A stretch of DNA of 64,000 nt from Selaginella tamariscina (lineage: Eukaryota > Streptophyta > Lycopodiopsida > Selaginellales > Selaginellaceae), in NCBI GenBank assembly GCA_003024785.1, contig PUQB01000169.1:120165-184164 (forward strand). Reading direction: 5' to 3'. The translations under genes were made by a program, and so were the position numbers. Shown piece by piece: positions 1-38,312 of the stretch (positions are counted from its first letter, which is position 1; each line of letters begins with the position of its first letter). The notes beneath the pieces are model-generated. The model was not told the DNA's origin. It saw nothing but the letters and a program-made list of their open reading frames with translations, and did no database searches.

Positions 1-20
1 GACCGAGTGAAGGCCCTGGG

Positions 21-405
21 CGGCGGGATTAATCCCGCCGAGTCTTCAATGCCTGTTGGAGGAATGAATCCGCCACCCTTCGCTTTTTTCTCCATTGGTG
101 AGTCGGACCAATCCTAAACGTTTCTGTCTGAGACGTAGAAGGTTTTCAACATACCAATGGAGAGAATTGGGAAGGGTGGGGAAATTCATTTAACCATCCC
201 TTACATGGTGGGCGAGATTAATCCCGCCCCCTTTCTGGAGTCACTGAAGGGGTGTGAGAAATAAATCTGCCCAGTTCTCTCTGAGACCGAGAAGGGTGGC
301 AAGATTAATTCCGCACTCCCGTTCAAGGCCTCCAGAAAGGTGGCGAGATTAATCCCGCCCACTCTTTCAGGAGGCATTGAAGGGGTGGCGAGATTAATCC
401 CGCCG
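21..405. repeat. Palindrome array 1 (partial; window edge)
   Basis: One perfect copy of the 18-bp palindrome GGCGGGATTAATCCCGCC lies near 22-39. Diverged units with GGCGAGATTAATCCCGCC-like cores lie near 209, 342 and 384, and a weaker one near 302. They are separated by conserved non-palindromic segments that include CCATTGGT/ACCAATGG inverted pairs. The array continues off the left edge. It is the counterpart of the last part of the 11099-12450 array. Confidence 0.85.
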
Positions 406-539
406 CACCTTCCATGTGAATATATATGTGTATTAGTATATATAAGTTGCATATCTCATTTTATTTACTTTTATCATCTTATTATAATATTTCGAGTAAA
501 AGCTAGGAATCTATGTAAAAGCTAGGAATCTATGTAAAA

Positions 540-621
540 CTGTCAGAGCTCACATTTGTGGTGGTTCTAAAACGAAATGTTATCTTTCTTTTGCACTAGC
601 ACAAATGTGAGCTTCGGACAG
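540..621. other. Hairpin upstream of ParB-like gene, copy 1
   Basis: A stem of about 21 bp (540-560 against 600-621) pairs the AGCTCACATTTGTG side with CACAAATGTGAGCT, leaving a loop of about 40 nt. It lies about 140 bases upstream of the proposed start codon and is conserved in the second copy (12566-12648). It could be a promoter or 5'UTR structure, or a tiny foldback insertion shared by both copies. Confidence 0.6.
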
Positions 622-761
622 TTAATTACGTCTACTTCTCTCTGTGTATTATTTTTGTATATTCGGGTTTATACAAGTGTGTGTGTTTTTATATGATTTG
701 TATTCATAGTGTATTATTTTGCAGAAACGATTTGATCAAACAAGGAGATCGAGTCATTAGT

Positions 762-2899
762 ATGGAGTCGTCGTCAAATTCTGGGTAAGAATTAAAATAA
801 AATCTGTTATACTCGGATACTTGAACTAATCATTTTTGTATTCAGATGTGGAATTGAGGTGACATTAAAGACAAGAGCAGGAGAAGAGATGGGCAGGGGG
901 ATTCTGGAATCAACTTGGCCATATTTTAAGATAAATGGGAAGCGCATTGGAGCAACCATGGCTGCTGTCAAATTAACCTCTGTCACATCTCATGGACAAG
1001 CAAAACAATGGAAAGTAGATTCGCTAGTCAAGCACCCGAAAGCAGGCTGCGAACCCAGATTGGACGATTCTCGACACATATGCCTTGTTCCATCCAATGT
1101 CACGTTCTCGGATCCAGAGGTCGTCAGTTACAACATTAATTTCGGGTGGTTTTGTCGACTTGTGGATAATGACGTTCACGTGTTCACTAATGATGTTGAC
1201 CTTGGAGTTCTTCTTCAACTCAACGAAAGCCCATCTATGGAGGGGATCCATCTGGATGTCTACTTCGAAAATCTTCAGACTCATCGAGTAGGTGTATTGT
1301 CAGGAGATATTGCTTCACAATACAGAAAATCAGCAAGTGAAGCAATCTTCCCTCTTCACATTGAAGAAGAACACAGCGACATCATAATGGGATTAGAGGG
1401 TGGCTCGGTCTCAGGTTCTCTACAGATCACGTTCAATTTGCTTAGGGAGCTTTGGGAGCTGGAAAGTGTACCGAGAACACTAGAACAGCTGCAGTCGGGG
1501 ATCACACATGTTGATTCGGATCGCAAAAGAAAATCATCAATCGTTTTGTCAGCTGCACCTGTGGCATCTCATGCTGCAATAAGTCACAAGGAAATGATGT
1601 TGGATGATAAGATTTATCCTTGTAGGGTTAAATATTGCAGCGTCAACCCAAACTTCAATTACAGGCCACTCAACCAGGAACGTGTAGCTGAGCTCATGGA
1701 GAAGATGAAGGACGACAATTCTTATACCGTTCCATAATGCTGTTTTGTGTCCATACTATGAAAGAAGGAAGGGCGCTGACAAAGTCTGGATCACAACACC
1801 AGAACAACTCATGAAGATTCAGGACGGAGAATAAAAAATCGATCAAGTACTACATCATTAGTGGCCAGCACACAATAACGGCAGCCCAACGACTTCTCGA
1901 TGAACACAACAAAGGAACGATGGCAACAAAACTTTCTGAGCATACCCGTGAGAAGCTGACAAAAAGATCGGCGTTTTTAGCTAAGCCGAATCTCACAATC
2001 GAGCAGTACCATAAGTTATCGGCGGAATGGGACGCTGCCGACACCAACCACTACAACAGCAAAATATGGGAGAAGTTTAAACACACGCGAGCCGTGTGGG
2101 AATCTCTTGAGCGACCACAAAGAGCTACCGCAGGGAATACACAATCTGCGGAATACCGGGTAAGCAAATTGTTTGGGCGGGATTTATCTCGCCGGTATAT
2201 TAATCTGTCTTTTTCCTCAGAGAGTTGAAGAAATTGCAGCAGTTGATTTTGCCCAGGTGGGCGAGAAGGAAACATCCTTTCTGATGATGTTGATTTCTTG
2301 CCCCGAAGATAGGATCTTTGCCAAATGGTTGGGGATTATGGAATCCTTTTCAAAAGGAACACTGAAGAAGAAGCAGACAAGTGAAGGGGAGCCCTCAGAA
2401 AAGTCTGCAAAGAAACCCAGTAAGACGCCGAAGGCTAAGTCTGTTCAATCTACAAAGGATGTAGACAACGATTTCAAGCTCACATGGTTGAAGCCTTTAA
2501 ATGGAACAACGATGGAGGAGATGGAAGTCTTGGCTGATTTGGTGATCGATGGCAAACTACAAATTAATAACAGCAGCCCAACCTCTGCTTTTCATCTCAA
2601 GGCAATGGAGTTGAAGACGGTCAGGCATTTCAAGGAGTGGTTGGGAATACACTGCCACAAACTGGGTTGGACCTCGACTTCAACATATGAAGAGGTCAGC
2701 AAATATTTGCATGTGACGAACGATGATATTCTTGTCGAATGGGTGAACCAATCGGAAGATCTAGGCAAGAATCTATTGCACGCCAACGCCAAAAAGGAGA
2801 ACATTGGGATGACGCCTTCTCTTATGGCAGTCCTTCAGCAGCGGAGAACCGAATTGAACCTTATAAAGGAGGATGCTACGAATCATGACAAGCCCTACA
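762..2899 (+). pseudogene. ParB-like gene, truncated upstream copy
   Basis: This is a 3'-truncated copy of the gene at 12793. Exon 1 is 762-784 (MESSSNSG), followed by a 61-base GT-AG intron at 785-845. Exon 2 starts at 846, and a second 61-base intron lies at 2160-2220. The ParB-like region is recognisable near 1615-1900: NYRPLNQERVAELMEKM followed by YYIISGQHTITAAQRL. Against the other copy it lacks two bases near 1735, which shifts frame within the ParB domain, and has an extra base near 1825. It keeps frame near 1130 and near 2110, where the other copy is shifted. The 3' part with the methyltransferase-like motifs is missing. Neither copy reads through, so this one is called a pseudogene. 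Confidence 0.8.
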
Positions 2900-2926
2900 A
2901 TGCAAGTTGTAACTAAAATGGGCATG
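2900..2926 (+). repeat. Left terminal inverted repeat
   Basis: It begins ATGCAAGTTGTAACTAAA and ends TGGGCATG. It pairs with 17585-17611 with mismatches only at positions 6 and 19. Its first base follows directly on the end of homology with the other ParB-like gene copy. Confidence 0.8.
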
Positions 2927-3406
2927 GCTATAGTCCCATTTCCTAATAATTAGCAATTTTAGCTATTTAATTAGCATTTTCTAATATTAAAGGAATATTC
3001 TTTAGAATATATGTTTGAAAAGAGAATATTCTTTAGAATATTCTATTTTGTATTCTACCCTTTAATAAATTATAGCATTCATTGAACAAAAATTAATAAC
3101 ATTATAAAAGTAGAATGTATTAAATTATATAATATATTGCCTAATATAACAATTAAGGAAGAGCATAAGAGGTACATTATATAAATATTGATGTTGTTAT
3201 TAAAATATTAATATTTAAATATAACATTATTAATTAAAAATTTGTAGTAGTAATAATATATATATAAAATCCTATAATAATATAGTCAATCTTCCATATC
3301 ATTTTTTAAATTTATATAGTTAAGTATACAATTTGGTACTATTATTAAAGAGTTTATAATAATTATGAATATTAAATATATGATATTTTATAATTTTGTA
3401 ATTGCT
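2927..3406. other. AT-rich subterminal region, no gene
   Basis: AT-rich DNA with three GAATATTC palindromes close together (near 2992, 3022 and 3036). The same motif recurs near the right end (17432) and in the interior. No coding sequence was seen. It contains the 3' flank of the minus-strand transposase gene. Confidence 0.5.
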
Positions 3407-6400
3407 TTAAGCTTCAGAAAACATACATTCCCTTGCAGTTTTGTTAATCGTGACTTTATCAACGCTTCTTGACATCCACCCATATCGAATGGATTTAACA
3501 TTTATAAAACATGCTGGGTCTTTTTGATTGGGAGACCATGTTTTCTCTAGGCATCCATTATATCTTTCGCTCTCCTTCTCGTGTCGCCTTTTTTGTGGTT
3601 TGAACCATGCAACCTTAACAATACTATTTTTTGTGATTACTTCAGGTGTGTCGATAATTTGACCCATCCAAATAGGCTGATTATATGACGCATCTGGAGT
3701 AATGAGAACCATCATTAGTTTTTGAAGATCCTTGCAGCAATCAAAGTATGCTTTAGGTTTTTGGTTCCTTTGTCCAACAAAGTGTGGGGTTTGCACTTCC
3801 ACATCACTACTGGCTTCTATGTCGTCTGTGCTCAGTGATGTCATTTCAATCTCCTCTCGCCACCTTGTTTTAGGCCAGAAAGGGTGTTGCAATTCTGTAC
3901 TTGTGACAGTAGGCCCTTCCAACTCTCGAACAACAGTCTCCCAATAGTTGACCACATGCTTATATAGTTCTGAGTAACCAGTTGCCTTATCAGAATTCTT
4001 TGGCATCGATTTTTGAACCCATGCCACATATTTTTTGATGCCATCAATAATAACCTCTTGTTCCTTGAGCTGGGCACTCAATGGAATAGGGTCTGGTTGT
4101 CCTTCTGGGAGAAGTGGCTTTCCATCCTCTCCACTTTTGAAGAGCATTAAGCCCTCTTTCGGTAACCACTCCTGCTCTGATGGCCGTAACTTGTACTGCA
4201 TAATAGGTATACCATCTCGTATGGAGAAAAAGAATTGTAGCGGCACAAGGTGACCAACTAAAGAATCACTCCCTTCTTTTATATACTCCTTGAGAAATTT
4301 TTTGAAGTCTGGCACCTCAGTCACAAGCAAAGCACAACTTTTTTTGGAGATGCAATTTTCAAAAAGATTCATCATATGCGGTAAGGTAAGTGCACTTGTC
4401 CTTTTTGTAGAGTTGGAGACCTTGCTGAAGAACGCATCAATATCTTCATGAGTGTGACCAACCATAAGGAAACTGAGCGTGATTGTTTCAAACACACCTT
4501 TGGCAACAAGCATTGACAAGTATGCTAGCACATATCTAGAAAATAAAAGTAAGTATGAGCTTGAGAAACCCTTAAGTAAAATGATTTACCTATTTTTGTT
4601 CTCGCCTGCACAATTATCCATCTGTAAAAGCAAATGACGAGGAAGCTTATTTGATGTTGAGGACACATGTACACTATTTGAGCTAGATCCCTCCACTGAA
4701 CCTGAACTCTCAACAGGGCCATCTGTTTTTTGTGCAGGTTGCTGACAATGCCTCTCATATTCCCAAGTAGCCTCAAGTGCAGACGTGTTCATGAGAGCAT
4801 TATGTAAAGGTTGAAGGTGTTGTTTCTTCACTTTGAGATCACTGATAGGACTTGTCTGTGAGTGGGCTTCAAGGTTTCTGAAACACATGGCTAACGACCC
4901 AATAGTGAAATTGGAGTCGCTAGACCAATGTGGAAGTGAAAAGTGTCCATATGACTCACAACCGTGTCCATGTGTTAGCACACCTGTTAAAGAAATCGGA
5001 AGTTTCATGACATTTCCAAGGCACTTTGGTGTTGCAAAGAGCTTTGGAATGCTGGTCTTTGAATGATCCATCTTGTCATGGATCAAGCACAGGTACTCTG
5101 ATGGGCGTGACACAGAAAGCATGCGGTGTGCATAGTACTGAGACCGACAAGTTTGTTGTGCAATCATGTGGGCCTCCATCTTCCTTTGAATGGTAGTGAT
5201 CTCCACCAAGGTTTTTGCACAAGCCTCTGCAGCCTTCAATGATGTACAAGTGTCACACTTAGAAAAGCTAGAGTGTTTTGCAATCTCCACATCCTTAAAA
5301 TGAGTATTCCATATGTTGTTGAAGGTACCAGTGCAGATTGCTTGGAGCCCCATCAAACTGAGGCACTTGTTCACATGTTCACACAGTTTCAATTGAGTGT
5401 AGATTGAAGGTAAAACCTTGAGATTTTCCCTGACCCCTGCATTTGTGGTTCGGCATTTGTGAGGCATCCTGTCTGCATTTGCTTCCACAAAAGCCTTGAG
5501 TATCTCTATGGCTGCCATGATGTGAGAGCGGGTTTTGACCAAGCCAGTGTTCCCATGAACTGAGGTTCGCGCTCCATCTAGCCACTCATCCCTCCGACGG
5601 TAGAACGTGGTCTTTGGGATCCCGTATATACTGTACCAAGCTTTGAAGCAGATGGCCACCTTATTAAATACCATGGATGTACTCTGATAACCTGTGTCCG
5701 AGGCCATTCCATCAATACACCCAGTTAGTGCAGCATATACAAACTCATGCCTTTGCTTTTGGGTGAGCATACGAAAGACATGTCTACATTGGGTAATTTC
5801 ATTCCGGTCTGCCATCTGACAACACTTCTTCTTGCAACAGTCAATCGTGGAAATGCTCGTAACACTTTCGGAAGATGTAGGATCCATCTTTACCCTCTTG
5901 CTGAAACTTGCAGGGGAAGATCTACAACCCATGAATCGCCTTTTTCTTACAATAGGACCAATGCAAGGAACCTCTTCAAATATGAGTTGTTCTTCCGGGT
6001 TGTTATTATTGAAATCCAACCCAGAATATGTTGAACCATCTTGCCGTCTTAATTCAGATGTTCGCCACCTCACGAGGGATCCAGGATACAATGTGCCATT
6101 AGGTGAAACCTCTGTCACAACTACACCCACGAAGTCGGACCCTAGTTTCTCTTCTGACACTGCTTCCATTGGATTTATAGCTGTGATGATGCCTCTTCCG
6201 ACTTCAATCTCACGAAGAAAGAGAATCACCTCATCCATTACAGCAGGCAAGCCATCATCTGGTAAACTCGTGCTACTATTTGTTTGTGACTCTGCATATT
6301 TTGTGTCAGCCTTGACTTCATCCAAATTCCACAATACAGGAGAACCCTCCTCAAATTCCATTCCCAGAACCTCAACATGCTTGTAAATGGTGTTCACCCA

Positions 6401-6526
6401 TACGTACACACAAGATCCTTGGGAAATATTGTGACATGATGCATTATTATCTCGAACTTCCACAGTTCCAGTGCCAACTATCTCGTTGTTCCGAAGAAGA
6501 CATACTTTATCTCCAGTATTAAACAT
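3407..6526 (-). CDS. Transposase-like protein with DUF7869-type RNase H-like core
   Basis: Two exons, 6526-4590 and 4535-3407, flank a 54-base GT-AG intron (4536-4589). The joined reading is 1,021 residues with no internal stop. The first ~75 residues (KVCLLRNNEIVGTGTVEV...) resemble the small N-terminal domain of plant En/Spm Tnp1-type proteins. A Cys-rich stretch, CCKKKCCQ, lies near residue 232 and a KCDTC motif near 423. The core has HDKMDH (~483), QMDNCAGEN (~635) and GHTHEDID (~672). The acidic residues of these three motifs fit the D...D...E pattern of an RNase H-like DDE nuclease, and the last two motifs are hallmarks of the family now called DUF7869. The intron falls between the second and third motifs. 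The start is uncertain: ATG at 6526 is used, but a GTGCAG splice-acceptor-like site just upstream leaves room for an earlier exon. It is the only long gene in the window that is fully open, which suggests recent constraint or activity. The predicted role is to cut and move the enclosing element. Confidence 0.8.
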
Positions 6527-6679
6527 ATTGTCCTGCACATAAATAATTGTATTATTTATGATATCTGTTTATGCAATATTTTTAAAAATCTGAATTACGG
6601 TTACTTAATAATATGCATATGCAATAATACATAATTATGTTTAGAGATAATATCTCATGTTTGATTAATACAACTGATG

Positions 6680-7416
6680 GGCGGGATTAATCCCGCCCAC
6701 GAATCCCTCCGACGAGGAACGGTCGGCGGGATTAATCCCGCCGCCGACTCAACCCCTTCGGAGAGAGTCGGCGGGATTAATCCCGCCTTGGACTCCCTCC
6801 GACAAGGAAGAGCCGGCGGGATTAATCCCGCCGCCTCTTCCTCCTCGGGGGGAGTCCGGCGGGATTAATCCCGCCGACTCTCTCCGACGAGGAAGGGAGT
6901 CCGGCGGGATTAATCCCGCCGACTCATCCTCGCCGGAGAGAGTCGGCGGGATTAATCCCGCCGGACTCCCTTCCTCGTCGGAGGAAGAGGCGGCGGGATT
7001 AATCCCGCCGGCTCTTCCTTGTCGGAGGGAGTCCAAGGCGGGATTAATCCCGCCCACAATTCTTACGACGGGGAATGGGTGGCGGGATTAAACCCGCACA
7101 TAACTCTCTCCAAAACTATGATTTCAAAGAGATCTCGGGATAAATCCTGTCCCCAAATCTTTAAAACAGGGAAGTGGTGGCGAGATTAATCCCGCCACCC
7201 CTTCCCTGCCTCCTAAAATGGTTGGCGGGATTAATCCCGCCGACAACTCTTTCTAATAAATTCTGGTAACTCTTCATCAGTTGAGAAGGTTATCGACGGG
7301 ATTAATCCCGCCACTCTTTTTCAGTGGCGGAGAAGCATTGCCCGGGAGATGGTGGCGGGATTAATCCCGCCACTTCTTCAAAGAGGCGAAAAAGAAATGG
7401 CCGGATTAATCCCGCC
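6680..7416. repeat. Palindrome array 2 (about 15 units)
   Basis: About 15 copies of GGCGGGATTAATCCCGCC, most of them perfect, at intervals of about 43-48 bp: 6680, 6724, 6770, 6815, 6858, 6903, 6945, 6992, 7037, then looser copies near 7080, 7178, 7222, 7290, 7345 and 7399. The array is GC- and CpG-rich in an AT-rich neighbourhood. It lies 150 bases upstream of the transposase start, so it could serve as its promoter or operator region. Both strands translate to GGINPA or AGLIPP repeats, a by-product of the palindrome and not evidence of coding. Confidence 0.95.
6770..7054. repeat. 285-bp palindrome built of palindromes
   Basis: Seven 18-bp units are symmetric about the unit at 6903-6920. 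The spacer between units 6770 and 6815 is the exact reverse complement of the spacer between 6992 and 7037 (27 bases each). The next pair inward (6833-6857 against 6963-6991) and the innermost pair (6876-6902 against 6921-6944) are inverted with small differences. The whole block can fold into one long cruciform or hairpin as well as seven small ones. Confidence 0.85.
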
Positions 7417-8985
7417 GCCCCGGTTAACCTAGAATATTAAGTTAAAAGGATATTTAAACGTGATAAATCCCTAACGGAATATATTATAATCCTAATGCAT
7501 TTCTAAACCCCTAAATTGTAATTTTAAGAGAGAATGTAAGAGAGTGAATCTTAATAAGTATTTTTAAATTTGTTTATAATACTTACTTGTAAACAGCACT
7601 GAAGGCGCCGTGCTTTCCTATAAAGAATAGCACCCAATTTAATCTCGCTCCTGAGATGATCACTATGAAGAAAAAAGAAGATCTAAAGAGTGAAAATACA
7701 GAAGAAATGAAGAAACCCTTGCCGGAGAAAGAACCAGATCTGAATTTGAGTGGGAAATTAAATGCATTTTCAAATTTACATGTCAGACCGACAATACATA
7801 TGTCAGAAATTCAAATTTTTTAAAAAGAACAGAAAATAAAATTTAAGATGAGTTGACACAAATATCCGACACTCTGACATATATACTCTCCAGTTCCAAT
7901 GAGTATTTTAAAATTGCATTTAATGTTATTCAAGTGATTCAAGCTGTTTAATATTACGAAATTTTAGACTATATTCTACATTCTTAGTATTCAAGTATAT
8001 TTATATTATATATATATATATAATATATACTTATACAATAAATAAATTGATATATTATTATGTATCATTTAAAATATATTCATAGTCTGTTTATTATTAT
8101 TATTTTCTTAATTACTCGAGTATTTAGTTTTCATTTCCTAGTATCAATGGGATATTCTTTAATATTTTATTAATATTTGAAGAATATTCTAATATTAAAC
8201 CTGATTATCATAATTAAATTAGTCTTGTTCTTAATTATTGCAGTAATTATTCTACATTTGTATATATTAATGGGATTTTCTCAATTAATTTGTTATTATT
8301 TCAAGAATATTCATGTGTTAAACCTTATTATCAATATTAAATTAATACACACTATGAACATATTTTAAATTATACATAATAATACATCATTTTATCTAAT
8401 ATATAGTCATATATAGTTTTAATAATATATATATTAATATCATTTCCTTAATTACTTGAGTAATTAATCTTCTTTATATTAATGGGATATTCTTTATTAT
8501 TTTCTTATTATTCCAAGAATATTCCAATATTAAACATGATTATGATAATTAATTTAGTTAATTATTTGAGTACTTAATTTACATTTGTATATATTAATGG
8601 GATTTTCTCAATTAATTTCTTATTATTTCAAGAATATTTCAATGTTAAACCTTTTTATCAATATTAAATTAATATATATTATTAAAACTATATATGGCTA
8701 TATATTAGATAAAATCATATATTATTATGTATAATTTAAAATATGTTCCTAGTGTGTTTATTAATTTTATTTTCTTAATTATTCGATGTTTGTTTTGCAC
8801 ACATATATAAACACAATCATAAATTTACACACGCATTACAAGAACTTACAAAAACACATATGCACACACATGCACAACCCTAAACCAAACTGAAGAAATA
8901 GGTTGCTTCTTTATTGAAAACATCATGTTCAACGCATGTATGATATATGTACTCAATCTGTGTGACTGTATGTAACACATTGAAT
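7417..8985. other. AT-rich spacer with fold-back repeats
   Basis: No gene seen. Degenerate direct copies of a segment of about 300 bases occur (8140-8440, 8450-8700), each with ATTAATGGGATTTTCTCAATTAATTT-like blocks and AAGAATATTC motifs. A segment near 8350-8430 is inverted at 8685-8760, and 8031-8130 is repeated directly at 8715-8790. Confidence 0.5.
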
Positions 8986-9022
8986 TTACATGTGTAATAT
9001 TTATATTAAGCTTGTTGGGAGC

Positions 9023-9052
9023 AAACCCTAAACCCTAAACCCTAAACCCTAA
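9023..9052 (-). repeat. Interstitial telomere repeat
   Basis: Four tandem CCCTAAA units of the plant telomere type lie in the microsatellite tract. A second similar run lies at 9510-9537. These may mark repair of a double-strand break by telomerase or simple capture. The runs are too short and too internal to be a chromosome end. Confidence 0.85.
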
Positions 9053-9509
9053 TATGTAACACAATGAATTTACTCATGTAATATGTATGTATGTCTGTGT
9101 GTATACACGTGTGCATGTATATATGTGTACTCTGTATGTATATATGTGTACTCTGTATGTATATATGTGTACTTTCTGTCTTCTCTCATACATACACACC
9201 ATGCATGATCCATGTTAATATGTACTGTCTCTCTTCTCTCAAACATACACACCATGCATGATCTATAATATGTACTCGGTCTCTCTAATATTATGTACTA
9301 ATATGTATGTATGTCTGTGTGTATAATACACACCATGCATGATCCATAATATGTACTGTCTCTCTTCTCTCATATACTATGTATGTATATCTGTGTATAA
9401 TATGTGTAAGTATATATGTGTACTAATATATGCAATGTGTACAAAAATAATTTTTCAACACTCTCTCTTCTCTCATACATACACACCATGCATGATCCAT
9501 CCTAAATCC

Positions 9510-9537
9510 AAAACCCTAAACCCTAAACCCTAAACCC
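9510..9537 (-). repeat. Interstitial telomere repeat
   Basis: Nearly four tandem CCCTAAA units, 460 bases from the first run and in the same orientation. Confidence 0.85.
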
Positions 9538-10198
9538 ATGTAATATGTGTGTATGTCTGTGTGTATACACGTGTGTATGTATATATTATGTGTATTAATA
9601 TATGCAATGTGTATGTATGTATTGATACACATGAAACTTTAACACTCTCATGGACACACACATGTTAAATCCCTGCATGATTTATATTTTTGAGGTGTAT
9701 GTGATACACCCACGCACACGCACGCGCTAATAATATAATGAAAGAATATTCGTTTAGGGCGAATCTATATTTTATTCTTTTTAGGGTTTAAGTATATTCT
9801 CAGAAGGAATATTCTATTAGGGTTGATATATATATTTAATTCCTTTAGGGTTTAGGTATATTCTTAGGGTTTCAAGAGGCGGCGGCTGTGAAATCGGCGG
9901 CGGCGGCTGTGCACACAGGTGAGATCTGTGTGTGTGTGTGTGTGTATGTATGTATATATGTATAGGAGTGTGCGTATAATTTTATTTATTAGTTTTATCT
10001 CTCGCACACACACGCACACTCCTGTGTATGTATATGTGTGTGTGGTGTGTGTTTGTTTATCTGTATGATTTTATTTGTTTGCTCACACACGCATACACAC
10101 GATATACATATACACATATATATATATATACCTATATACATATATACATACATATATTATGTGTACCAGTATCTGTAAATTTTTTTTATTGATCTTGC

Positions 10199-10265
<67 letters not shown>

Positions 10266-10330
10266 TATGTGTACCAGTATCTGTAAATTTTTTTTTATTG
10301 ATCTATCTCTCCCACACACACGCGCACTGC

Positions 10331-10383
<53 letters not shown>

Positions 10384-11098
10384 TATATATATAATCAATG
10401 CATATTAACAAATAGTATACAACACTAGTTTATATATATGCTTATATATTCATATGGGTTATATATCTATATACACACATATATATATGTGTGTGTTTTT
10501 CTGTATAATTTTATTTATTTTAGTTTTATCTCTCGCACACACACGCACACTCCTGTGTATGTATATGTGTGTGTGTGTGTGTTTGTTTATCTGTATGATT
10601 TTATTTGTTTCGCTCACACACGCATACACACAATATACATATACACATATATATATACCTATATACATATATACATACATACAACACTAGTTTATATATA
10701 TGCTTATATATTCACAGACTCTCTCTCTTTCTCTATAGATTATATATCTATATACACACATATATATGTGTGTTTATCTGTATAATTTTATTTATTTATT
10801 AGTTTTATCTTTCGCACACACACGCACACTCCTGTGTATATATATATGTGTGTGTGTGTTTTGTTTATCTGTATGATTTTATTTGTTTCGCTCACACGCA
10901 TACACACGATATACATATACACACATATATATACCTATGTACACACATATATTAGGTGTACCAGTACTGTATAAATTTATTTATTTATCTATCTCTTGCA
11001 CACACACGTACACTCCTATACATACATACATACATATATATATATATACACACACACATATATATGTGTGTGTTTTTATCTCGCTAAGCCCCTCGAGC

Positions 11099-12450
11099 GG
11101 CGGGATTAATCCCGCCGCTATAGGTTTATAGCCTCGGCGGCGGGATTAATCCCGCCGCTATATGGTTGGGGCCATGGCGGCGGATTAATCCCGCCGCCGA
11201 GGCCCTTCAGGCATGGGTGAGCGGCGGGATTATTCCCGCCGCCGAGGCCCTCACGCAGGCCATGGGCGGCAGGATTAATCCCGCCGCTCTTCGGTTTGTC
11301 GTAGAGCGGCGGGATTAATCCCGCCGCCCAGGAATTCACGCAGGACATGAACGCCGGGATTAATCCGGCCCCACGCTCATGCCCTTCGCGGAGGGCGGCG
11401 GGATTAATCCCGCCGTTCATGTCCTGCGTGAATTCCCTGGGCGGCGGGATTAATCCCGCCCCCACCCATCCCTGTTCAAAAATGCCGCAGCCAATATATA
11501 TGTGTGAGCGCATGATTTACGAGAGGGCGGCGGGATTAGCCTCCGAACCTTCATTACCCGGTGGCGAGATTAATCTCCGAACCTTCATTACCCCATTGGT
11601 ATGTTGAATCAATCCCGACTAACTCTGTCTGAGACGGAGAAGGTTTACAAAATACCAATGGAGGAACCGAGAAGGGTGGTGGGATTAATTTCACCATCCC
11701 TTACATGGTGGGCGGGATTAATCCCGCCGCGTACGCATGCCCTGCGCGGAATCGGGCGGGATTTATCCCGCCGCCATTGGCCTGCCTGAAGGGCCTAGGC
11801 GGCGGGATTAATCCCGCAAGATTTCGCACAGGGCATTGGCGTTCGGCGGGATTAATCCCGCCGACTAAGGCCCGAGTGAAGGGCCTGGGAGGCGGGATTA
11901 ATCCCGCCGGACGCCAATTCCCTGCTCGGAATCGGGCGGGATTAATCCCGCCGCCATTGGCCTTCTGAAGTGCCTAGGCGGCGGATTAATCCCGCCCGAT
12001 TCCGCGCAGGGAATTGGCGTCCGGCGGGATTAATCCCGCCGCATAGGGACCGAGTGAAGGCCCTGGGCGGCGGGATTAATCCCGCCGAGTCTTCAATGCC
12101 TGTTGGAGAAATGAATCTCCCCACCCTTCCTTTTTCTCCATTGGTGAGTTGGACCAATCCCAAACGTTTCTGTCTGAGACGTAGAAGGTTTACAACATAC
12201 CAATGGAGGACTGGGAAGGGTGGCGAGATTCATTTAACCATCACTTACATGGTGGGCGAGATTAATCCCGCCTCCTTTCTGGAGTCACTGAAGGGGTGTG
12301 AGAAATAAATCCTGCCCAGTTCTCTCTGAGACCGAGAAGGGTGGCAAGATTAATTCCGCACTCCCGTTCAAGGCCTCCAGAAAGGTGGCGAGATTAATCC
12401 CGCCCACTCTTTCAGGAGGCATTGAAGGGGTGGCGAGATTAATCCCGCCG
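11099..12450. repeat. Palindrome array 3 (more than 20 units)
   Basis: More than 20 copies of the GGCGGGATTAATCCCGCC unit, perfect to diverged, at spacings of about 40-48 bp (11099, 11139, 11176, 11223, 11266, 11307, 11353, 11397, 11443, then about 11708 to 12100 and weaker to 12450). Spacers occur in both orientations: 11326-11352 is the near-exact inverse of 11415-11442, and 11908-11935 the near inverse of 11995-12022. This array again shows nested inverted symmetry. It ends about 340 bases upstream of the ParB-like gene. Within 11590-11665 and 12125-12210 the units are replaced by a segment bounded by ATTGGT/ACCAAT pairs. Confidence 0.93.
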
Positions 12451-12565
12451 CACCTTCCATGTGAATATATATGTGTATTAGTATATATAAGTTGCATATC
12501 TCATTTTATTTACTTTTATCATCTTATCATAATATTTCGAGTAAAAGCTAGGAATCTATGTAAAA

Positions 12566-12648
12566 CTGTCCAGAGCTCACATTTGTGGTGGTTCTAAAAC
12601 GAAATGTTATCTTTCTTTTGCACTAACACAAATGTGAGCTTCGGACAG
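12566..12648. other. Hairpin upstream of ParB-like gene, copy 2
   Basis: A 22-bp stem with two mismatches (12566-12588 against 12627-12648), CTGTCC...CACATTTGTG against CACAAATGTG...GGACAG. It lies 145 bases before the start codon and matches 540-621. Confidence 0.6.
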
Positions 12649-12792
12649 TTAATTACGTCTACTTCTCTCTGTGTATTATTTTTGTATATTCGGGTTTATA
12701 CAAGTGTGTGTGCGTTTTTATATAATTTATATTTATAGTGTATTATTTTGCAGAAGGACGATTTGATCAAACAAGGAGATCGAGTCATTAGT

Positions 12793-15700
12793 ATGGAGTC
12801 GTCGTCAAATTCTGGGTAAGAATTAAAATAAAATCTGTTATACTCGGATACTTGAACTAATCATTTTTGTATTCAGATGTGGAATTGAAGTGACATTAAA
12901 GACAAGAGCAGGAGAAGAGATGGGCAGGGGGATTTTGGAATCAACTTGGCCATATTTTAAGATAAATGGGAAGCGCATTGGAGCAACCATGGTTGCTGTC
13001 AAATTAACCTCTGTCACATCTCATGGACAAGCAAAACAATGGAAAGTAGATTCGCTAGTCAAGCACCCGAAAGCAGGCTGCGAACCCAGATTGGACGATG
13101 CTCGACAGATATGCCTTGTTCCATCCAATGTCACGTTCTCGGATCCAGAGGTCGCAGTTACAACATTAATCTCGGGTGGTTTTGTCGACTTGTGGATAAT
13201 GACGTTCACGTGTTCACTAATGATGTTGACCTTGGAGTTCTTCTTCAACTCAACGAAAGCCCATCTATGGAGGGGATCCATCTGGATGTCTACTTCGAAG
13301 ATCTTCAGACTCATCGAGTAGGTGTATTGTCAGGAGATATTGCTTCACAATACAGAAAATCAGCAAGTGGAGCAATCTTCCCTCTTGACATTGAAGAAGA
13401 ACACAGCGACATCATAAGGGAGATTGAGAAGGTGGCTCGGTCTCAGGTTCTCTACAGATCACGTTCAATTTGCTTAGGAAGCTTCGGGAGCTGGAAGAGT
13501 GTGCCGAGAACACTAGAACAGCTGCAGTCGGGGATCACACATGTTGATTCGGATCGCAAAAGAAAATCATCAATCGTTTTGTCAGCTGCACCTGTGGCAT
13601 CTCATGCTGCAATAAGTCACAAGGAAATGATGTTGGATGATAAGATTTATCCTTGTAGGGTTAAATATTGCAGCGTCAACCCAAACTTCAATTACAGGCC
13701 ACTCAACCAGGAACGTGTAGCTGAGCTCATGGAGAAGATGAAGGACGACAATTCTTATACCGTTCCACATAATGCTGTTTTGTGTCCATACTATGAAAGA
13801 AGGAAGGGCGCTGACAAAGTCTGGATCACAACACCAGAACAACTCATGAAGATTCAGACGGAGAATAAAAGATCTATCAAGTACTACATCATTAGTGGCC
13901 AGCACACAATAACGGCAGCCCAACGACTTCTCGATGAACACAACAAAGGAACGATGGCAACAAAACTTTCCGAGCATACCCGTGAGAAGCTGACAAAAAG
14001 ATCGGCGTTTTTAGCGAAGCCGAATCTCACAATCGAGCAGTACCATAAGTTATCGGCGGAATGGGACGCTGCCGACACCAACCACTACAACAGCAAAATA
14101 TGGGAGAAGTTTAAACACACGCGAGCCGTGTGGGAATCTCTTGCGACCACAAAGAGCTACCGCAGGGAATACACAATCTGCGGAATACCGGGTAAGCAAA
14201 TTGTTTGGGCGGGATTTATCTCGCCGGTATATTAATCTGTCTTTTTCCTCAGAGAGTTGAAGAAATTGCAGCAGTTGATTTTGCCCAGGTGGGCGGGAAG
14301 GAAACATCATTTCTGATGATGTTGATTTCTTGCCCCGAAGATAGGATCTTTGCCAAATGGTTGGGGATTATGGAATCCTTTTCAAAAGGAACACTGAAGA
14401 AGAAGCAGACAAGTGAAGGGGAGCCCTCAGAAAAGTCTGCAAAGAAACCCAGTAAGACGCCGAAGGCTAAGTCTGTTCAATCTACAAAGGATGTAGACAA
14501 CGATTTCAAGCTCACATGGTTGAAGCCTTTAAATGGAACAACGATGGAGGAGATGGAAGTCTTGGCTGATTTGGTGATCGATGGCAAACTACAAATTAAT
14601 AACAGCAGCCCAACCTCTCTTTTCATCTCAAGGCAATGGAGTTGAAGACGGTCAGGCATTTCAAGGAGTGGTTGGGAATACACTGCCACAAACTGGGTTG
14701 GACCTCGACTTCAACATATGAAGAGGTCAGCAAATATTTGCATGTGACGAACGATGATATGCTTGTCGAATGGGTGAACCAATCGGAAGATCTAGGCAAG
14801 AATCTATTGCACGCCAACGCCAAAAAGGAGAACATTGGGATGACGCCTTCTCTTATGGCAGTCCTTCAGCAGCGGAGAACCGAATTGAACCTTATAAAGG
14901 AGGATGCTACGAATCACGACAAGCCCTACAGATGTTTGTTGTTTAGATTCGGAGACTTTATGGGGTAACATCACTGCTTGTAGGAAACCGTTTCAATTGT
15001 TCGTGATGGATCGGCGGGTGTCAAAAAATCTTTCGACAGATAGGGCACTAGAGGAGAGAAACTTAGCCGTGCAAGCATATACATAGAAGGTATTTATTAT
15101 TGAATTCATGCTTGCGCTCTTCACTGATACCTACTTTTTCAGGTATTTATTTCTTGATTCTTGCTCATGTCACCGATACTTTTGCCTTCGCCTTCGCCAA
15201 GAAGAATAGACATCGTTGGACAGGATTTTATATGAACGATGCTAATCCCAAGTGCATTGATACCGTTGTTCACTTGGTTGTTAGGAATGCGCCAAACAAT
15301 TTCAAGCTTCCAAATGACTGGCCAGGCATCTGTTTGCACTCCAACGGCCCTGAACCTCCATCCGATACACCGATAGGTATGAGTGACGTATTCGGCAATG
15401 TACGTTATCCAAACATTACAAGTCAAGCGGCACGGAGCATCGTCAACTTGATCAGGGGTCCTGACAGTGATGCGTAGGTTTTTGACTACTGCACTAGGGG
15501 GTCCGTCTTGAAGGAGTGTTACCTTCGGCATACATGTGTGTTTGCCGTTGAAAAGGATAAGACCATGGTTGAGGACCTGAACAAGTGGATAGATTGGGTC
15601 TCAACTGAGTACCCCAACGAATCCATAAAGGAGTATTTGAGAAAGTTCCCTCCAGATAAGTGCGATAGCTCTGAAGGTGAATCTGGTTCAATCTCGGAGT

Positions 15701-15876
15701 CTGAGAACGAACTTCAATCAGATATTAGACCGGAAGTTATCTCGAGGAGTACAGAACATTCGCACACTCCAGGACCCATGGAAACATCAATAGAAGATGC
15801 AGAAGATCTTGAACCATCTCACAAGCGGCTTAGACCTTCTTCGCCTCATCAGAAGGTAATAGCGAAGAAGAATTGA
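12793..15876 (+). pseudogene. ParB-fold / DNA methyltransferase-like protein gene, longer copy
   Basis: Exon 1 is 12793-12815 (MESSSNSG). Introns lie at 12816-12876, 14192-14252 and, probably, 15090-15142. The N-terminal ~250 residues are unrecognised. From about residue 264 comes a ParB/sulfiredoxin-like block: NPNFNYRPLNQERVAELMEKM, then a VPHNAV strand, then YYIISGQHTITAAQRL, the position where ParB proteins carry their GERRxRA-type signature. A Lys-rich linker (14390-14500) follows. The 3' part resembles an N4/N6 DNA methyltransferase: PFQLFVMDRRV sits where motif IV (DPPY) would be, and VFDYCTRGSVLKECYLRH...FAVEKD resembles motif I plus the acidic SAM-binding loop. The C-tail is acidic and then basic (HKRLRPSSPHQK). 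Differences from an open frame are a one-base loss near 13155 and a two-base loss near 14143 relative to the other copy, a frame change near 14930, another near 15080, and an in-frame TAG at 15475-15477 just before motif I. ParB-methyltransferase fusions are common in bacteria and phages. Here the domain calls rest on motifs only; the ParB call is firmer than the methyltransferase call. Confidence 0.55.
14208..14225. repeat. Array-type palindrome inside an intron
   Basis: GGCGGGATTTATCTCGCC, a slightly diverged copy of the array unit, lies inside the second intron of the ParB-like gene. The same site is present in the other copy at 2176-2193. It is isolated from the arrays and retained in both copies. 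Confidence 0.7.
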
Positions 15877-15998
15877 TAATGAATTGATAGAGTGATGAAT
15901 AGTTGTAAATGAGTGTAACATAAGGCATTTTTGTATATTTCTTTTATATTTGTACAGAAAATAAATTCTCAAGGATTAATGAAGCTTTTAGTTCAAAC

Positions 15999-16963
15999 AT
16001 GGGTCACACATTAACAAGGTAAATAATATACCTTGATAATTTTAAGGTCACTAATTATCATTTTGCAGATGTAATGAAATAATTGAGAACATGGATTTTC
16101 AGCATTGGCATGAGGTAAGAGAGGGGTTTGGCGACAATTTCTTGTGCCACATGTCAGAATGACAGAGTTCATGCAGGAAATGGATAATAATGCAGCTCAA
16201 AACATCGTTACCATGGGGGCCACTTCATCATCATTTTTATTGGCTTCAGTTCCGAAATCAATTTCTTCAGCGCATGCAATATCTGAATCTTGTAAGGATG
16301 ATGTACAATTAAATGATGAAGGGATAGGCAACGAGATAGTGGCAACGGATAAATGTGAAAGGGAGCAAACAAGTGATTTGCAAAGTATTCAAGAGGCAAC
16401 GCCATCTCATGTTACTCATGGCCATATTGTTGTTGGATGTCAATGGTGTTCTGCTTCATCGACAAAGGCCCCAGGATAGAAAAACAGAAATCAAACAAGG
16501 AGATTTCATTCCTTGTCATGGTAAATTTCGATATGATATTATTTTTCGTCCAGGGTTGGATCGTCTCTTTCAAAAGCTTAAGGAGATGGGTGCGCTTGTG
16601 GGGATTTGGTCATGCATGCAGATTCATAACTTAACACCGCTGTTGAGTTTACTTAAGAAACATTGTAGTGTTGCAGAAGAGGTGATTCGTAAAGATTGGA
16701 TTTTTGACCAGCGAATGTGTCATAAACCTCTCGAATTTCAGAATATAAGAAAGGAAAGCAAGCCATACTTCTTCAAGAATGAAAGAATAATTGGGACTCA
16801 TGGGGAGATCAGTCGCTTAAGGATAACGAAGAATGCACATATCTTAGTAGTAGATGACTCTCCTCAGAAGGCTATGCTCAACCAAAACATTGCTTGTATT
16901 CATCCAATCACTTTCGATCCATATTCTGATACCGATATCATGGATGAGCTCATATTATTCTAA
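15999..16963 (+). CDS. HAD superfamily FCP1-like phosphatase (frame change in N-terminal part)
   Basis: Exon 1 is 15999-16018 (MGHTLT), a 50-base GT-AG intron spans 16019-16068, then exon 2. The catalytic part from about 16409 is open to the stop. It has LLLDVNGVLLHR as HAD motif I, with the second Asp replaced by Asn as in the plant LDxNG subgroup. Next come FRPGLDRLFQKL and VGIWSCM (motif II region, Ser/Trp), a Lys in SKPYFFKN, and VVDDSPQKAMLN (motif IV DDSP). This matches plant nuclear HAD/FCP1-homology proteins such as those reading LLVLDLNGLL in Arabidopsis. Upstream, a low-complexity region (16150-16430) is open in two frames that overlap, so at least one frame change lies near 16160 and another between 16355 and 16430; an unrecognised intron could explain one of them. 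The gene lies 120 bases after the ParB-like gene on the same strand and converges on a small ORF. A protein phosphatase role is likely; its link to the element is unknown. Confidence 0.65.
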
Positions 16964-17041
16964 AAATAATTTACAATAATGAAGAAATACTATCAAACAT
17001 AATTACAAATGAAATAATTTTCTTATCAACATGTTAATTTT

Positions 17042-17413
17042 TTATAAATACTTTCTTTCTATCATACAAAGAAATCTTTTCATTTTGTCTAAATCATCAC
17101 TCTCCGGATTAATCAAATCATTTTGGTTAATATCTTGATGTTGTTGCCACCACTTAACACTCTCACGAATGCAATTGGGAGTTGCCATCCTTGTTAATAC
17201 ATAAGATGTGATAAGAGAAGGTCTGCATAAAGGCTCATCTAAAAACTGACGTTCCTTAAGAATAATATTATAAAGCGCCCGGTTGCTATCCTTCATTTTA
17301 TAAAATTCAATATCACGAGAAAGAAAAGCTTCAGGAAATGTATGATACGGTGGATACTGCTCACAAAAATTTTCGAGATTCTTCTTTCTGAGGCACGTAT
17401 CCAAGTAGTTCAC
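17042..17413 (-). CDS. Small orphan protein, 123 aa
   Basis: An open frame starting MNYLDTCLRKKN, with normal amino-acid composition, several Cys and a C-terminal basic end (MIERKYL). It is convergent with the HAD gene and lies 170 bases inside the right terminal inverted repeat. I do not recognise a family. SSpecific-looking segments such as PNCIRESVKWWQQHQ suggest a real, possibly truncated, protein and not chance. It could be the last exon of a longer minus-strand gene whose upstream exons have been lost outside the element. Confidence 0.45.
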   Translation of the reverse strand: MNYLDTCLRKKNLENFCEQYPPYHTFPEAFLSRDIEFYKMKDSNRALYNIILKERQFLDEPLCRPSLITSYVLTRMATPNCIRESVKWWQQHQDINQNDLINPESDDLDKMKRFLCMIERKYL

Positions 17414-17584
17414 TAATATTCTAAGATATTTTAGGAATATTCCTTACTAAGTAAGGTTATTGAAGGATTAATTAATTAATTAATTAATATTTAAGGCTTA
17501 ATTACATATTAATTAAATGATTAATTAATAATTAAAACTTAAGTATTAATTAGTAATTTATTTTATATTCCCATTTTCACGTAT

Positions 17585-17611
17585 CATGCCCACTTTAGTT
17601 ACAACGTGCAT
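17585..17611 (-). repeat. Right terminal inverted repeat
   Basis: Read on the minus strand it begins ATGCACGTTGTAACTAAA and ends TGGGCATG, matching 2900-2926 at 25 of 27 positions. A GGAATATTCC palindrome lies 150 bases inside. Confidence 0.8.
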
Positions 17612-24693: not shown

Positions 24694-25916
24694 TCAAACA
24701 TTATAAGTAAGAAGAGAGGGTTGAAAAGGAAAGAATATATCACCTCCTTTACCCTGGCCAAAAACTGAATACCAATTGCTGCTTAACACATCATATACAC
24801 ACCCCCAATCTATCAAGTGGAAATACATTGTCACTTGGTTCTTCCCACCTACAACCTCGTACTGTTCAAAATTTAAGCTCAATCCTTTTTACCCCTTGTA
24901 GGAAGCATCTTAAGCGGCAAACGTGAAATCTCTTCCCACTTTTTACTCTCTTCCTCTAAAGTATAAATGCAAACCGTGCTCCACATGCTCTCGTCCTCCA
25001 AAGGAACAAGCATTACAAGCATAAACTTATTCTCACATAGCACAAAGTAGGGTTCGACATAACGTGGCCTGCGATTTCTAGTCATGTGCAAGTCATATCC
25101 TGGCTGCCAATAAATCAGGGTCCATGTTGCCAAACACTTCACATCTTGACAAGGATCAAACACGTTCATAGATTTAAGTGAACATGTATCATCCGGAGTC
25201 ATACTTATAAATACAAGTGGTTGTTGCGTAGCGCCCATGGAAACACATGAACTTAAAATGATTTCTTTACCCTCTTCACCAAATGGTATCACATTAGAAG
25301 CCACCCAATTTGCATTGCTGGAGGTGTAGACATGCAGCACAGGCTTTAACCATGTTGATGATTTCCTTTCCACAAGGCATGCTATGATGAACCTTGTACT
25401 ATCAGTAAGGCACTCTTGAATAGCAACAAAGATTACAGGATCAATATAGGAATTCCTTGATATCGTGAAAGACAACTGGTGAGGAACATGGGGTAGAGGG
25501 GGCAATTGAGTGAACCATCTGTTGAAGGGATTGCAAACGACAGCACAACCATTGTATCCTGCACCATGGATGCAAACCAACCCATTTGAAGAAGCAGATA
25601 TACTGTAGAAAACATATATTACATCATCACGATGGGGTATTTCAATATGTAGTGGTAGCTTTCTCCACGACTTAGAGCCCTCCTCCATGAGAGAAAATCC
25701 AAATGTGCATATATCATGATTCTTCTCTAGTACAGGCCGAATAAACCAAGTACCCTTAACTTTGTTCTTGATTTGAGCGTTCCAGTCCTTGCAAACGCAT
25801 CTAAACCGACATAATGTAGGAAGTGGCATGTGGCGAAATAAGATAGAGTAAATATCTTGTGGAAGTTGTGTCTAAATAGTTGAAAGTGATTGTTTTCTTT
25901 TAGATTTGTTGATCAT
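24694..25916 (-). pseudogene. F-box protein gene with two lesions
   Basis: Read on the minus strand. An F-box motif reads LPQDIYSILFRHMPLPTLCRFRCVCKDWN, followed by about 300 residues of kelch-like or F-box-associated sequence (SNGLVCIHGAGYNGCAVVCNPF, WTLIYWQPGYDLH, VCIYTLEEESKKWEEISRLP), the usual layout of plant SCF substrate receptors. The largest open part is 25829-24879. Upstream, an in-frame TAG at 25872-25874 separates the F-box from the nearest ATG at 25914-25916. At 24879-24890 a one-base change in an A-run shifts frame; the last 60 residues (LSLNFEQYEVVGGKNQ...) continue in another frame to 24694. With only two small lesions this is either a recent pseudogene or a gene spoiled by base-calling errors. 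Confidence 0.75.
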
Positions 25917-27395: not shown

Positions 27396-28372
27396 TGTCA
27401 GAGTTTTAACCCAAAGGGCCAACACGTGGCAACACGTGGCTGCCAGGTGGCCATTCGGCGTCATCACCCTGTGTGAGCAATGCTAAGTTTCCCAGAACAA
27501 CCCCAACGACCCCTAAGGTTAGACTCTAATGCCCAAGTGGACAGGAGACTTAAGGTTTAGCCTAAGTCTCCCTAGAGTGTCTACCCCCAAAACCCTTGAG
27601 GGATAACCCTAGTTGACTTAGGGTTTAGCCTAAGTCTCCCTAGAGTGTCTGCCCCCAAAACCCTTGAGGGATAACCCTAGTTGACTTAGGGTCTTGCCCT
27701 AGAAGACCTAGACAGGCTCATGCCCTAACCCCCATCAAGGAGACGTGTGTTCCACACATACCCCTAGACAGAGCTAAGGCATCGTCACTTACCCCTTGAG
27801 GAATCACCCTCATCCGGGAGTACATCCCCTTTAGGGCGACAAGGGGTACCCTGAACCACGACTAACCCCTAAGGGTTTGAGTGGCCAAGTTATACCTTAG
27901 ACCTAGGGCTAGTACTTAGTGAGGACACGAGTGTGCGCCGTAGGCGGACATGAGTTTTCTACTAAGCAAACTCCCTAAGGCTAGATTTGGGATAACCCTA
28001 AGCACATGACCTTGCGAGTGCCTTACGAAAGGGCTTTTGATAATGAGCTTAGGTTGTTCAACCCCTGGATTCCAAGGAGAACACTCCCCTAGCCAAGTGT
28101 GCCAAAACACACTTAATTACGAGACCTAACCTCCCTTGAGCGGATGCCCAAGGCTTAGCACCCTAGTGCAAGCACAAGCATGCCTGTTTGCTAAAGTATC
28201 CAACCCCTTAGTGACAAGCCCATGACATAACCCCAAAGGGCGTGCCTCGGGCGTTGTACTATGTGACGTTTAGCCCAGTGTCACATCTCCATGTGACACT
28301 GCCTTCCATGATGTGGGCTATCATGCCATAGCCCTTAGATTCAAGAGTTGCACCAAGTACCACAAACGTGGT

Positions 28373-28950
28373 TGTTAGGAGCATAGTTAGACATTAGTAG
28401 AATTTCTTGTTATTTTATGGGAAAAATATCAAAAACAATATATATTATGGAAAATCGAGAGTGGAAGGGATATATCGGAGTACGAGTTACTGATGCACAC
28501 CGCAATACAGGGCGTCATCGCAATACGGTAAAAGCGGAGTACGGCATTTATGGATAAGGATAAGAAGGAGTTACAGTAACCGAATGGATAAGGCTAGGAG
28601 GCAGTTGTGGTAACTGCTAGTACGGGTATAAATAGACCAGATTAGGACTAGAAGGGCATCCCGAGTATACTGTTATTTTGTACTATGTGCCGTGAGCGGA
28701 CATAATATAAGTTTCCTTTCTCTCTCAATACGTCTATCTCTTACTCATATTTCTGTGATGTAGTATACTATTCTTATTTTCCAGTACTATGACGGGATCC
28801 GTAGTACTGCTACCTGCTATACACCTTGCCATCCTTACCCTCTTTCCTGATTTCCTAATTTTCTATGTCTGATTACATCCGTAATTCAATCGGTAGACCC
28901 GTAGTACGGGTTTATCGAAGTACGGAGAGTAGGAAATTACGGGTTTAACA
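28373..28950 (+). repeat. 5' LTR of Ty3 element 28373-37500
   Basis: 578 bp, TGTTAGGAGC...GGGTTTAACA. It contains a plausible TATA-like TATAAATAG near 28628. Confidence 0.9.
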
Positions 28951-36923: not shown

Positions 36924-37500
36924 TGTTAGGAGCATAGTTAGACATTAGTAGAATTTCTTGTTATTTTATGGGAAAATATCAAAAACAATATATATTATGG
37001 AAAACCGAGAGTGGAAAGGATATATCGGAGTACGAGTTACTGATGCACCACCGCAATACAGGGCGTCACCGCAATACGGTAAAGCGGAGTACGGCATTTA
37101 TGGATAAGGATAAGAGGAGTTAGTAACCGAATGGATAAGGCTAGGAGGCAGTTGTGGTAACTGCTAGTACGGGTATAAATAGACCAGATTAGGACTAGAA
37201 GGGCATCCCGAGTATACTGTTATTTTGTACTATGTGCCGTGAGCGGACATAATATAAGTTTCCTTTCTCTCTCAATACGTCTATCTCTTACTCATATTTC
37301 TGTGATGTAGTATACTATTCTTATTTTCCAGTACTATGACGGGATCCGTAGTACTGCTACCTGCTATACACCTTGCCATCCTTACCCTCTTTCCTGATTT
37401 CCTGATTTTCTGATGTCTGATTACATCCGTAATTCAATCTGGTAGACCCGTAGTACGGGTTTATCGAAGTACGAAGAGTAGGATAATTACGGGTTTAACA
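36924..37500 (+). repeat. 3' LTR of Ty3 element 28373-37500
   Basis: 577 bp, nearly identical to 28373-28950 and preceded by a G-rich polypurine tract (AGTTTGGGGGGA). Confidence 0.9.
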
Positions 37501-38312
37501 TGGTTCCTTAATGCCAACTCTAGAACCCCTCAATGAACCCTCAGGAACCAGGTAATGTAAACCTGTCAAACAAGATCCCATGCCCACAGTTGGACAAGGA
37601 CACGGATGTGCCTTGCTTGGCTGTGAGTGCTACACCTAGCTTGATGTGGAGGAGGAGGCTGGAGACAAGCCTCAACCTTTGCCTCTTGGAATGTGCATTC
37701 CAACAAGACCTCCCAGGCATGGATTCGCCAACGTTAAGGGTAAGCTACCCCGAAGGTGGGACGTACCCCTGGCATCTGGAAGTTAGGGCGGCACAACAGA
37801 GGGTTGTACCTTAACGACACAAGCTGAAGCTTGCACCGGCAGAAGAGTAACGAACTCATTCATGAACCTAGGAGCTCTCCTACGTATACTCTACCTTATT
37901 TATGTGACGGAGCCCCCCCTCTTTTCCTATATGTGTTAGTGGGCTGGCACTAAATGCCAACCCCTTAGTTAATGAGATGAGTTTGCACACTAACCCCTAC
38001 CCCTAAACCCTAACCAAGGGGGGTGGGGGTTTTAGGGCGTGGGTTAGGGCAACCCTAGGGGTGTTCTTAACCCTATTAACATGCCAAACTCATCTTAACT
38101 AGGACGTCAAAATCGGGGGTGGGTTTTCTAGAAGGTAAGTGCTACCTTCGCTTAGAGTTTCTCGCGACATCTAAAGATAGCCGGCCGGACTACCCTTAAA
38201 CACCTAAGTGCACTAAGCGGGGCTGTTTCTCACTACATCTAGGGTCCGTCAACATAGTACAATAGGTAACTACAGTCAACGTCCAAAGCGAGTCATAGTA
38301 AAAACTATGACA

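Follow-up and report, generated by a model that had tools for sequence, protein, structure and literature searches.

Here, we report a DNA transposon, 14.7 kb long, that has inverted ends of 27 bp and duplicates 4 bp of its target, an identification of which we are practically certain, in a stretch of the Selaginella tamariscina genome (Lycopodiopsida; NCBI GenBank assembly GCA_003024785.1, contig PUQB01000169.1, positions 120,165 to 184,164 of the forward strand; 64,000 nucleotides, hereafter the window). The transposon family is young and abundant, and the element is likely autonomous. It carries a DUF7869-type transposase gene, an accessory gene, a NIF-type phosphatase gene and two arrays of an 18-bp palindrome. 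Taken as a whole, it is probably best explained as a self-mobilising transposon with a palindrome-binding anti-silencing module. A first-pass annotation, made from the letters of the window, had proposed a cargo-carrying DNA transposon family in a plant; the family and the plant host were both borne out, and the word "cargo", in the sense of passenger genes, was not. The features of the window copy are as follows:

2900-2926, plus strand: left 27-bp terminal inverted repeat, ATGCAAGTTGTAACTAAAATGGGCATG; the flank changes at this base in the copies
3407-6526, minus strand: transposase gene, exons 6526-4590 and 4535-3407, 1,021 amino acids
6680-7416: palindrome array 1, GGCGGGATTAATCCCGCC at a period of about 45 bp, 15 units (at most 3 mismatches)
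11099-12449: palindrome array 2, 21 units of GGCGGGATTAATCCCGCC (at most 3 mismatches)
12793-15876, plus strand: accessory gene, hand-made four-exon model, frame-shifted in the window copy
16340-16963, plus strand: NIF-type phosphatase domain (PF03031)
16950-17415, minus strand: 466-bp segment with the C-terminal NIF tail, inverted in the window copy
17585-17611, minus strand: right 27-bp terminal inverted repeat, CATGCCCACTTTAGTTACAACGTGCAT

Ends, family size and insertion sites

Compared as inverted repeats, the two 27-bp ends are identical at 25 of 27 positions, and the left boundary is a flank switch at exactly this base in 8 of 8 loci (5 by script, 3 reverse-strand loci by eye). The unit that the first-pass annotation had drawn from 2900 to 17611 is correct to the base. 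As that annotation had proposed, the assembly (300.7 Mb, 1,391 contigs) was searched for the end motif and for copies of the transposase gene. Exact matches to a combined pattern of both end forms numbered 2,259 (1,161 + 1,098), and the same pattern read backwards gave 0 matches genome-wide. Halved, the ends correspond to an estimated 1,130 or so elements, which would occupy about 16.6 Mb (5.5%) of the assembly if all were full length. An exact 36-mer of the transposase gene occurred 1,721 times and one of the accessory gene 799 times; the latter probably decays faster, because it holds two CpG dinucleotides and the transposase 36-mer none. Since the transposase 36-mers outnumber half of the ends, an exception to the link between ends and genes, the ends of some copies are probably decayed or lost. 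With the left 201 bp as query (737 candidates seen, 40 scored), 40 of the 41 matches listed were full length at 100% identity and one was a 50-bp piece.

Ends, genes and spacing go together. The first 100 ends listed include 14 distinct left/right pairs in opposed orientation, spaced 13.9 to 15.1 kb. Short non-autonomous derivatives did not show up among these 100 ends, as the pairing script found no opposed exact-end pair closer than 10 kb. In the same set, 34 of 45 left-type ends had the exact transposase 36-mer at the expected distance, and 28 of 53 right-type ends had the exact accessory-gene 36-mer at the expected place. Starting from the genes, the transposase 36-mer lay upstream of the accessory-gene place in 37 of 50 listed places; as a further exception, the exact accessory 36-mer followed downstream in only 37 of 94 transposase places. 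The first-pass annotation had named two outcomes that would count against it, transposase copies lacking these ends and ends unrelated to the extra genes; both tests, exceptions included, favour a transposon family.

Ten of the 40 full-length places (long contigs chosen) were fetched and compared with the window copy, giving 11 copies. The right end follows the left at 13.8 to 15.1 kb in 8 of the 10 fetched copies (one of them, C380, contains 4,450 N); of the other two, C180 is cut short by the end of its contig and C324 has undergone rearrangement. Every one of the 11 copies has array 1 and the full transposase stretch. Ten of the 11 have at least 92% of the accessory gene and 9 have at least 91% of the NIF gene, both genes being masked by N in C380 and the NIF gene lying beyond the contig end in C180; a stretch around the accessory-gene start is missing in C224. 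In the 55 pairwise comparisons of the first 3.7 kb, the median difference is 10 mismatches (range, 0 to 28) and 10 gaps.

Flanks were compared in 23 pairs (14 end pairs, 8 fetched two-ended copies and the window copy; C180 and C324 were left out, and five odd-length pairs were counted apart). An exact 4-bp target duplication was found in 11 of 23 pairs by script and in 12 of 23 with the nested copy C80 correctly paired, against an off-pair rate of 0.006 for a 4-bp flank match; there were no flank matches of 5 to 8 bp and one of 3 bp. Four of the five odd-length pairs also matched. For C80, the script had used the outer right end, 249 bp away; the inner right end, re-paired by hand, gives ATAA as the duplication, and other copies carry the joined site without a break (5 of 11 exactly, 4 more within 2 edits). 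C335 has the duplication TTGT, and its joined flanks align gap-free at the junction to window positions 33059-32649, inside a Gypsy-type element, which are the empty site for this insertion. Two empty sites are thus visible, one of them inside the window. The duplication is absent in 11 pairs, the window copy included, for which chimeric assembly or recombination is suspected; mis-joining comes into question because repeats of 14.7 kb at about 99% identity are easily mis-joined. Copies also insert into one another: C80 sits inside the right end of another copy, and in C324 a further copy is found where array 2 ends.

Genes and palindrome arrays

The intact transposase-like gene of the first-pass annotation is present on the minus strand and, among the 11 copies, is unbroken in the window copy only. 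Spliced by hand across a 54-bp GT-AG intron (4589-4536), it matches DUF7869 (PF25273) with an E value of 9.1e-47 (159.6 bits; gathering cut-off, 26). A DDD RNase H transposase core is predicted for this DUF7869 protein from an alignment of 34 of its 93 relatives and an AF2 model of one of them (P0001), with D484/D487, D637 and D677/D679 as putative catalytic acids; the conserved acids are common to the 34 aligned relatives. Foldseek with the whole transposase model returned nothing at 0.001 (best E, 0.005, Tn5). The closest relative is 53% identical, and named moss, liverwort and animal proteins are 27 to 42% identical over the aligned parts. None of the 93 carries a functional name (blank, hypothetical, uncharacterized or DUF7869), and the word DUF7869 was found in no paper of the literature collection searched.

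Besides the transposase there are two genes, where three cargo genes had been counted; the supposed third, an open reading frame at 17042-17443 on the minus strand, is the tail of the NIF gene. The accessory gene encodes 976 amino acids in copy C147 (hand model, four exons). Residues 100 to 900 found no relative among 5.8 billion proteins at E of 1e-3 or below (7,996 best word-sharing candidates scored), nor did exon 2 by itself at E of 1 or below (3,987 candidates), both searches reaching only relatives that share exact 5-residue words. Pfam gave no family up to E = 5, and nothing convincing came of Pfam with the whole protein and its pieces, or of NCBIfam, PHROGs and PDB sequences; the few weak profile hits (E 0.04 to 1.4) were unrelated. 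A tblastn search of a 259-residue piece against phages gave a single match at E = 10, and single-sequence AF2 of exon 2 reached a pLDDT of 33. By these searches, the accessory gene is classed as an orphan.

The first-pass annotation had called this gene ParB/methyltransferase-like. That identity is not supported: there was no ParB or methylase profile match in Pfam, NCBIfam, PHROGs or PDB, and neither homolog nor fold confirmed a name that goes back to reading by eye. We take the ParB-like stretch, and a C-terminal stretch like methylase motif I that lacks the expected DPPY, as an unconfirmed lead only.

The HAD phosphatase gene held up, with a PF03031 (NIF) match of 43.0 bits in the window copy (E = 4.8e-11) and 44.1 bits in C147 (cut-off, 21.8). 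NIF/FCP1-type HAD phosphatases have the catalytic motif DxDxT/V; in the window copy and C147 it is altered to DVNGV. The 466-bp segment at 16950-17415 has the opposite orientation in the 7 complete unmasked copies, and in the window copy the NIF gene is cut short by this clean inversion.

Palindrome arrays had also been noticed at first pass, and there are two, in all 11 copies, with 9 to 20 units in array 1 and 17 to 26 in array 2 (at most 3 mismatches). The unit, GGCGGGATTAATCCCGCC, is a perfect palindrome over 18 bp, with TTAA fixed at its centre. In the window copy, each array lies upstream of a start codon, array 1 beginning 154 bp from that of the transposase gene and array 2 ending 344 bp short of that of the accessory gene; one further palindrome (at most 3 mismatches) lies at 14208, near the second intron of the accessory gene. 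The position of an array directly upstream of each outward-read gene suggests regulator binding sites. Twenty mononucleotide shuffles of the element gave 0 palindromes. The genome has 27,128 exact matches to the unit, against 0 for the control. The first 100 listed are all from a single contig: 72 lie where an array is expected relative to an exact end, 23 others belong to three pairs of clusters with the spacing of the element (3.4 to 3.7 kb), and 5 match neither pattern. The observed/expected ratio of CpG is 1.05 in the arrays, 0.40 in the transposase gene and 0.61 in the rest of the window. Short runs of CCCTAAA, the plant-type telomere unit, also occur inside the element (8990-9060 and 9490-9540).

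Older copies and the window locus

Nine candidates from a search with right-end DNA (left out of counting, since it probably skips very common words) included divergent matches that led to older copies in C447 and C538. Over the main blocks, identity to the element is about 83 to 88% for C447 and for two right halves that lie in tandem in C538; all three keep the accessory and NIF genes. Palindromes of old copies were found in C447 and, weakly, beside the copy in L002; the C538 stretch ends short of array 2. The two tandem right halves at C538 (L029) have diverged unequally.

In the accessory gene, third-position change exceeded first-plus-second-position change in 3 of 3 old copies (p = 0.0016, 0.0007 and 0.0076), because of which the gene looks like a working part of the element; in the NIF gene the excess reached 0.05 in 1 of 3 (p = 0.003, 0.086 and 0.051). 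C-to-T change in the old copies affected 15.6, 30.4 and 34.6% of CpG cytosines against 9.7, 12.0 and 15.7% of other cytosines, and the reverse comparison showed no such excess (2.8, 5.6 and 6.9% against 5.9, 5.3 and 7.6%). To judge from these substitutions, the CpG excess is consistent with methylation of the old copies.

The window copy is a compound locus and not the best example of its family. Its left neighbour is a further piece of the same element:

1-2899, plus strand: fragment of a second element copy, holding accessory-gene sequence and the end of array 2, 97.3% identical to 12048-14930

The left end of the window copy interrupts the accessory gene of this second copy at CCCTACA, where intact copies continue GATG, and the right flank holds no continuation of the interrupted gene.

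Other neighbours in the window are an F-box gene (24879-25871) with weak similarity to the KIB1-4 beta-propeller, the Gypsy-type long terminal repeat retrotransposon (28370-37501; end repeats 97.4% identical), gene fragments of the plant disease-resistance type with NB-ARC and leucine-rich repeat domains (39894-42282), and a second retrotransposon (51848-54836) with a reverse-transcriptase-like open reading frame, recognised by eye, and a chromodomain end. The disease-resistance and F-box genes, together with the moss and liverwort relatives of the transposase, agree with the plant host named at first pass.

Alternative explanations and known systems

In the mechanism that we propose, the DUF7869 protein, as predicted DDD transposase, would cut and paste the element. 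Cut-and-paste elements gain copies by transposing during host DNA replication, and copy gain here would come about in the same way. The model for the accessory protein is VANC of the VANDAL transposons, which are Mutator-like. The accessory protein is proposed as palindrome binder because VANC is the nearest worked-out parallel; it would bind the arrays in both promoters, keep both open and hold off silencing, VANC-like and self-directed. The NIF-domain protein may assist and would then be no passenger. For the palindrome-binding module itself, which is drawn by analogy, we put the chances somewhat below even. A bolder version, that an orphan family unrelated to VANC reads the 18-bp palindromes in both promoters, defeats methylation and drove a burst of more than 1,000 copies, and would thus be an independent origin of anti-silencing, we consider rather doubtful.

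The strongest competitor, tentative in its own right and a little less probable than the palindrome-binding module, is an ordinary large Sola-like transposon whose extra genes are captured host passengers and whose palindromes are inert slippage repeats. The size, the 4-bp duplication and the DDD core match the Sola features printed in the excerpted text of PMC10741241, the numbers of array units differ between copies as slippage would give, and the NIF catalytic motif is altered. Passengers and inert repeats fit less well with two arrays kept in all 11 copies and set 154 and 344 bp upstream of two start codons in the window, or with an accessory gene that shows its third-codon excess in old copies; an orphan for which no relative was found is also unlike a recent host capture. 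An alternative reader of the palindromes would be a host E2F-type S-phase factor, tying expression to DNA replication and so favouring copy gain. The arrays do lie upstream of both genes, and the palindrome halves GGCGGGA/TCCCGCC resemble an E2F site, a likeness seen by eye; a perfect palindrome of 18 bp around a constant TTAA goes beyond what single E2F sites require, and we think this reading improbable.

Palindromes together with a ParB-like motif, YYIISGQHTITAAQRL, recognised by eye only, could also belong to a plasmid- or virus-like element whose extrachromosomal form is partitioned by means of a ParB-like protein and parS-like palindromes. No ParA, replication or capsid gene was seen among the listed open reading frames of the element (by eye; Pfam for 8 of them) and there was no ParB profile match, which makes such an element very unlikely. 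A pairing of the ends by chance or assembly, in a stretch patched together from unrelated repeats, is scarcely credible. The window copy does lack a target duplication, is set in another copy and is internally inverted, so that a patchwork is possible for its details; for the family it is refuted by thousands of exact ends, steady spacing, 4-bp duplications and empty sites.

The element can be set beside three known systems. In our reading the element is a Sola-like cut-and-paste transposon, a likeness taken from printed Sola features alone, and it is not filed here in the Sola superfamily. Excerpts of two papers describe Sola elements as having a 4-bp target duplication and a DDD transposase and as present in the moss Physcomitrella (PMC10741241, PMC9033089); inverted ends of 11 to 1124 bp are given in the first (PMC10741241). 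Sola elements are mostly 2 to 9 kb long, with some above 15 kb. The element shares the 4-bp duplication (12 of 23 pairs), the inverted ends (27 bp) and a predicted DDD transposase. These excerpted descriptions of Sola1, Sola2 and Sola3 mention neither an orphan accessory gene nor palindrome arrays in promoters. DUF7869 (PF25273) proteins of mosses, liverworts and animals share the domain of the element's transposase, and the element makes a strong case that this domain of unknown function is a transposase. According to an excerpt of PMC6431247, DNA transposition becomes markedly less effective above 6 kb of cargo; a 14.7-kb element at about 1,130 copy equivalents contrasts with that drop.

VANC, in the excerpted accounts, binds short motifs in tandem arrays in noncoding VANDAL DNA and removes silent marks, and the motif arrays, including those upstream of the transposase gene, gain and lose units between copies (PMC5735166, PMC10398659). 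Like VANDAL21 and VANDAL6 of Arabidopsis as described there, the element encodes an extra protein and has tandem noncoding motif arrays near its transposase and accessory genes. Unlike VANC, the accessory protein has neither DUF1985 nor any other Pfam family (up to E = 5), and unlike in VANDAL, the motif is a perfect 18-bp palindrome and the transposase is of DUF7869 type. Binding and demethylation by VANC are experimental results according to the same excerpts, whereas palindrome binding here is proposed by analogy. If true, the palindrome module would add a second kind to the anti-silencing systems that plant transposons encode, and simple DNA-binding assays could then test how such systems evolve.

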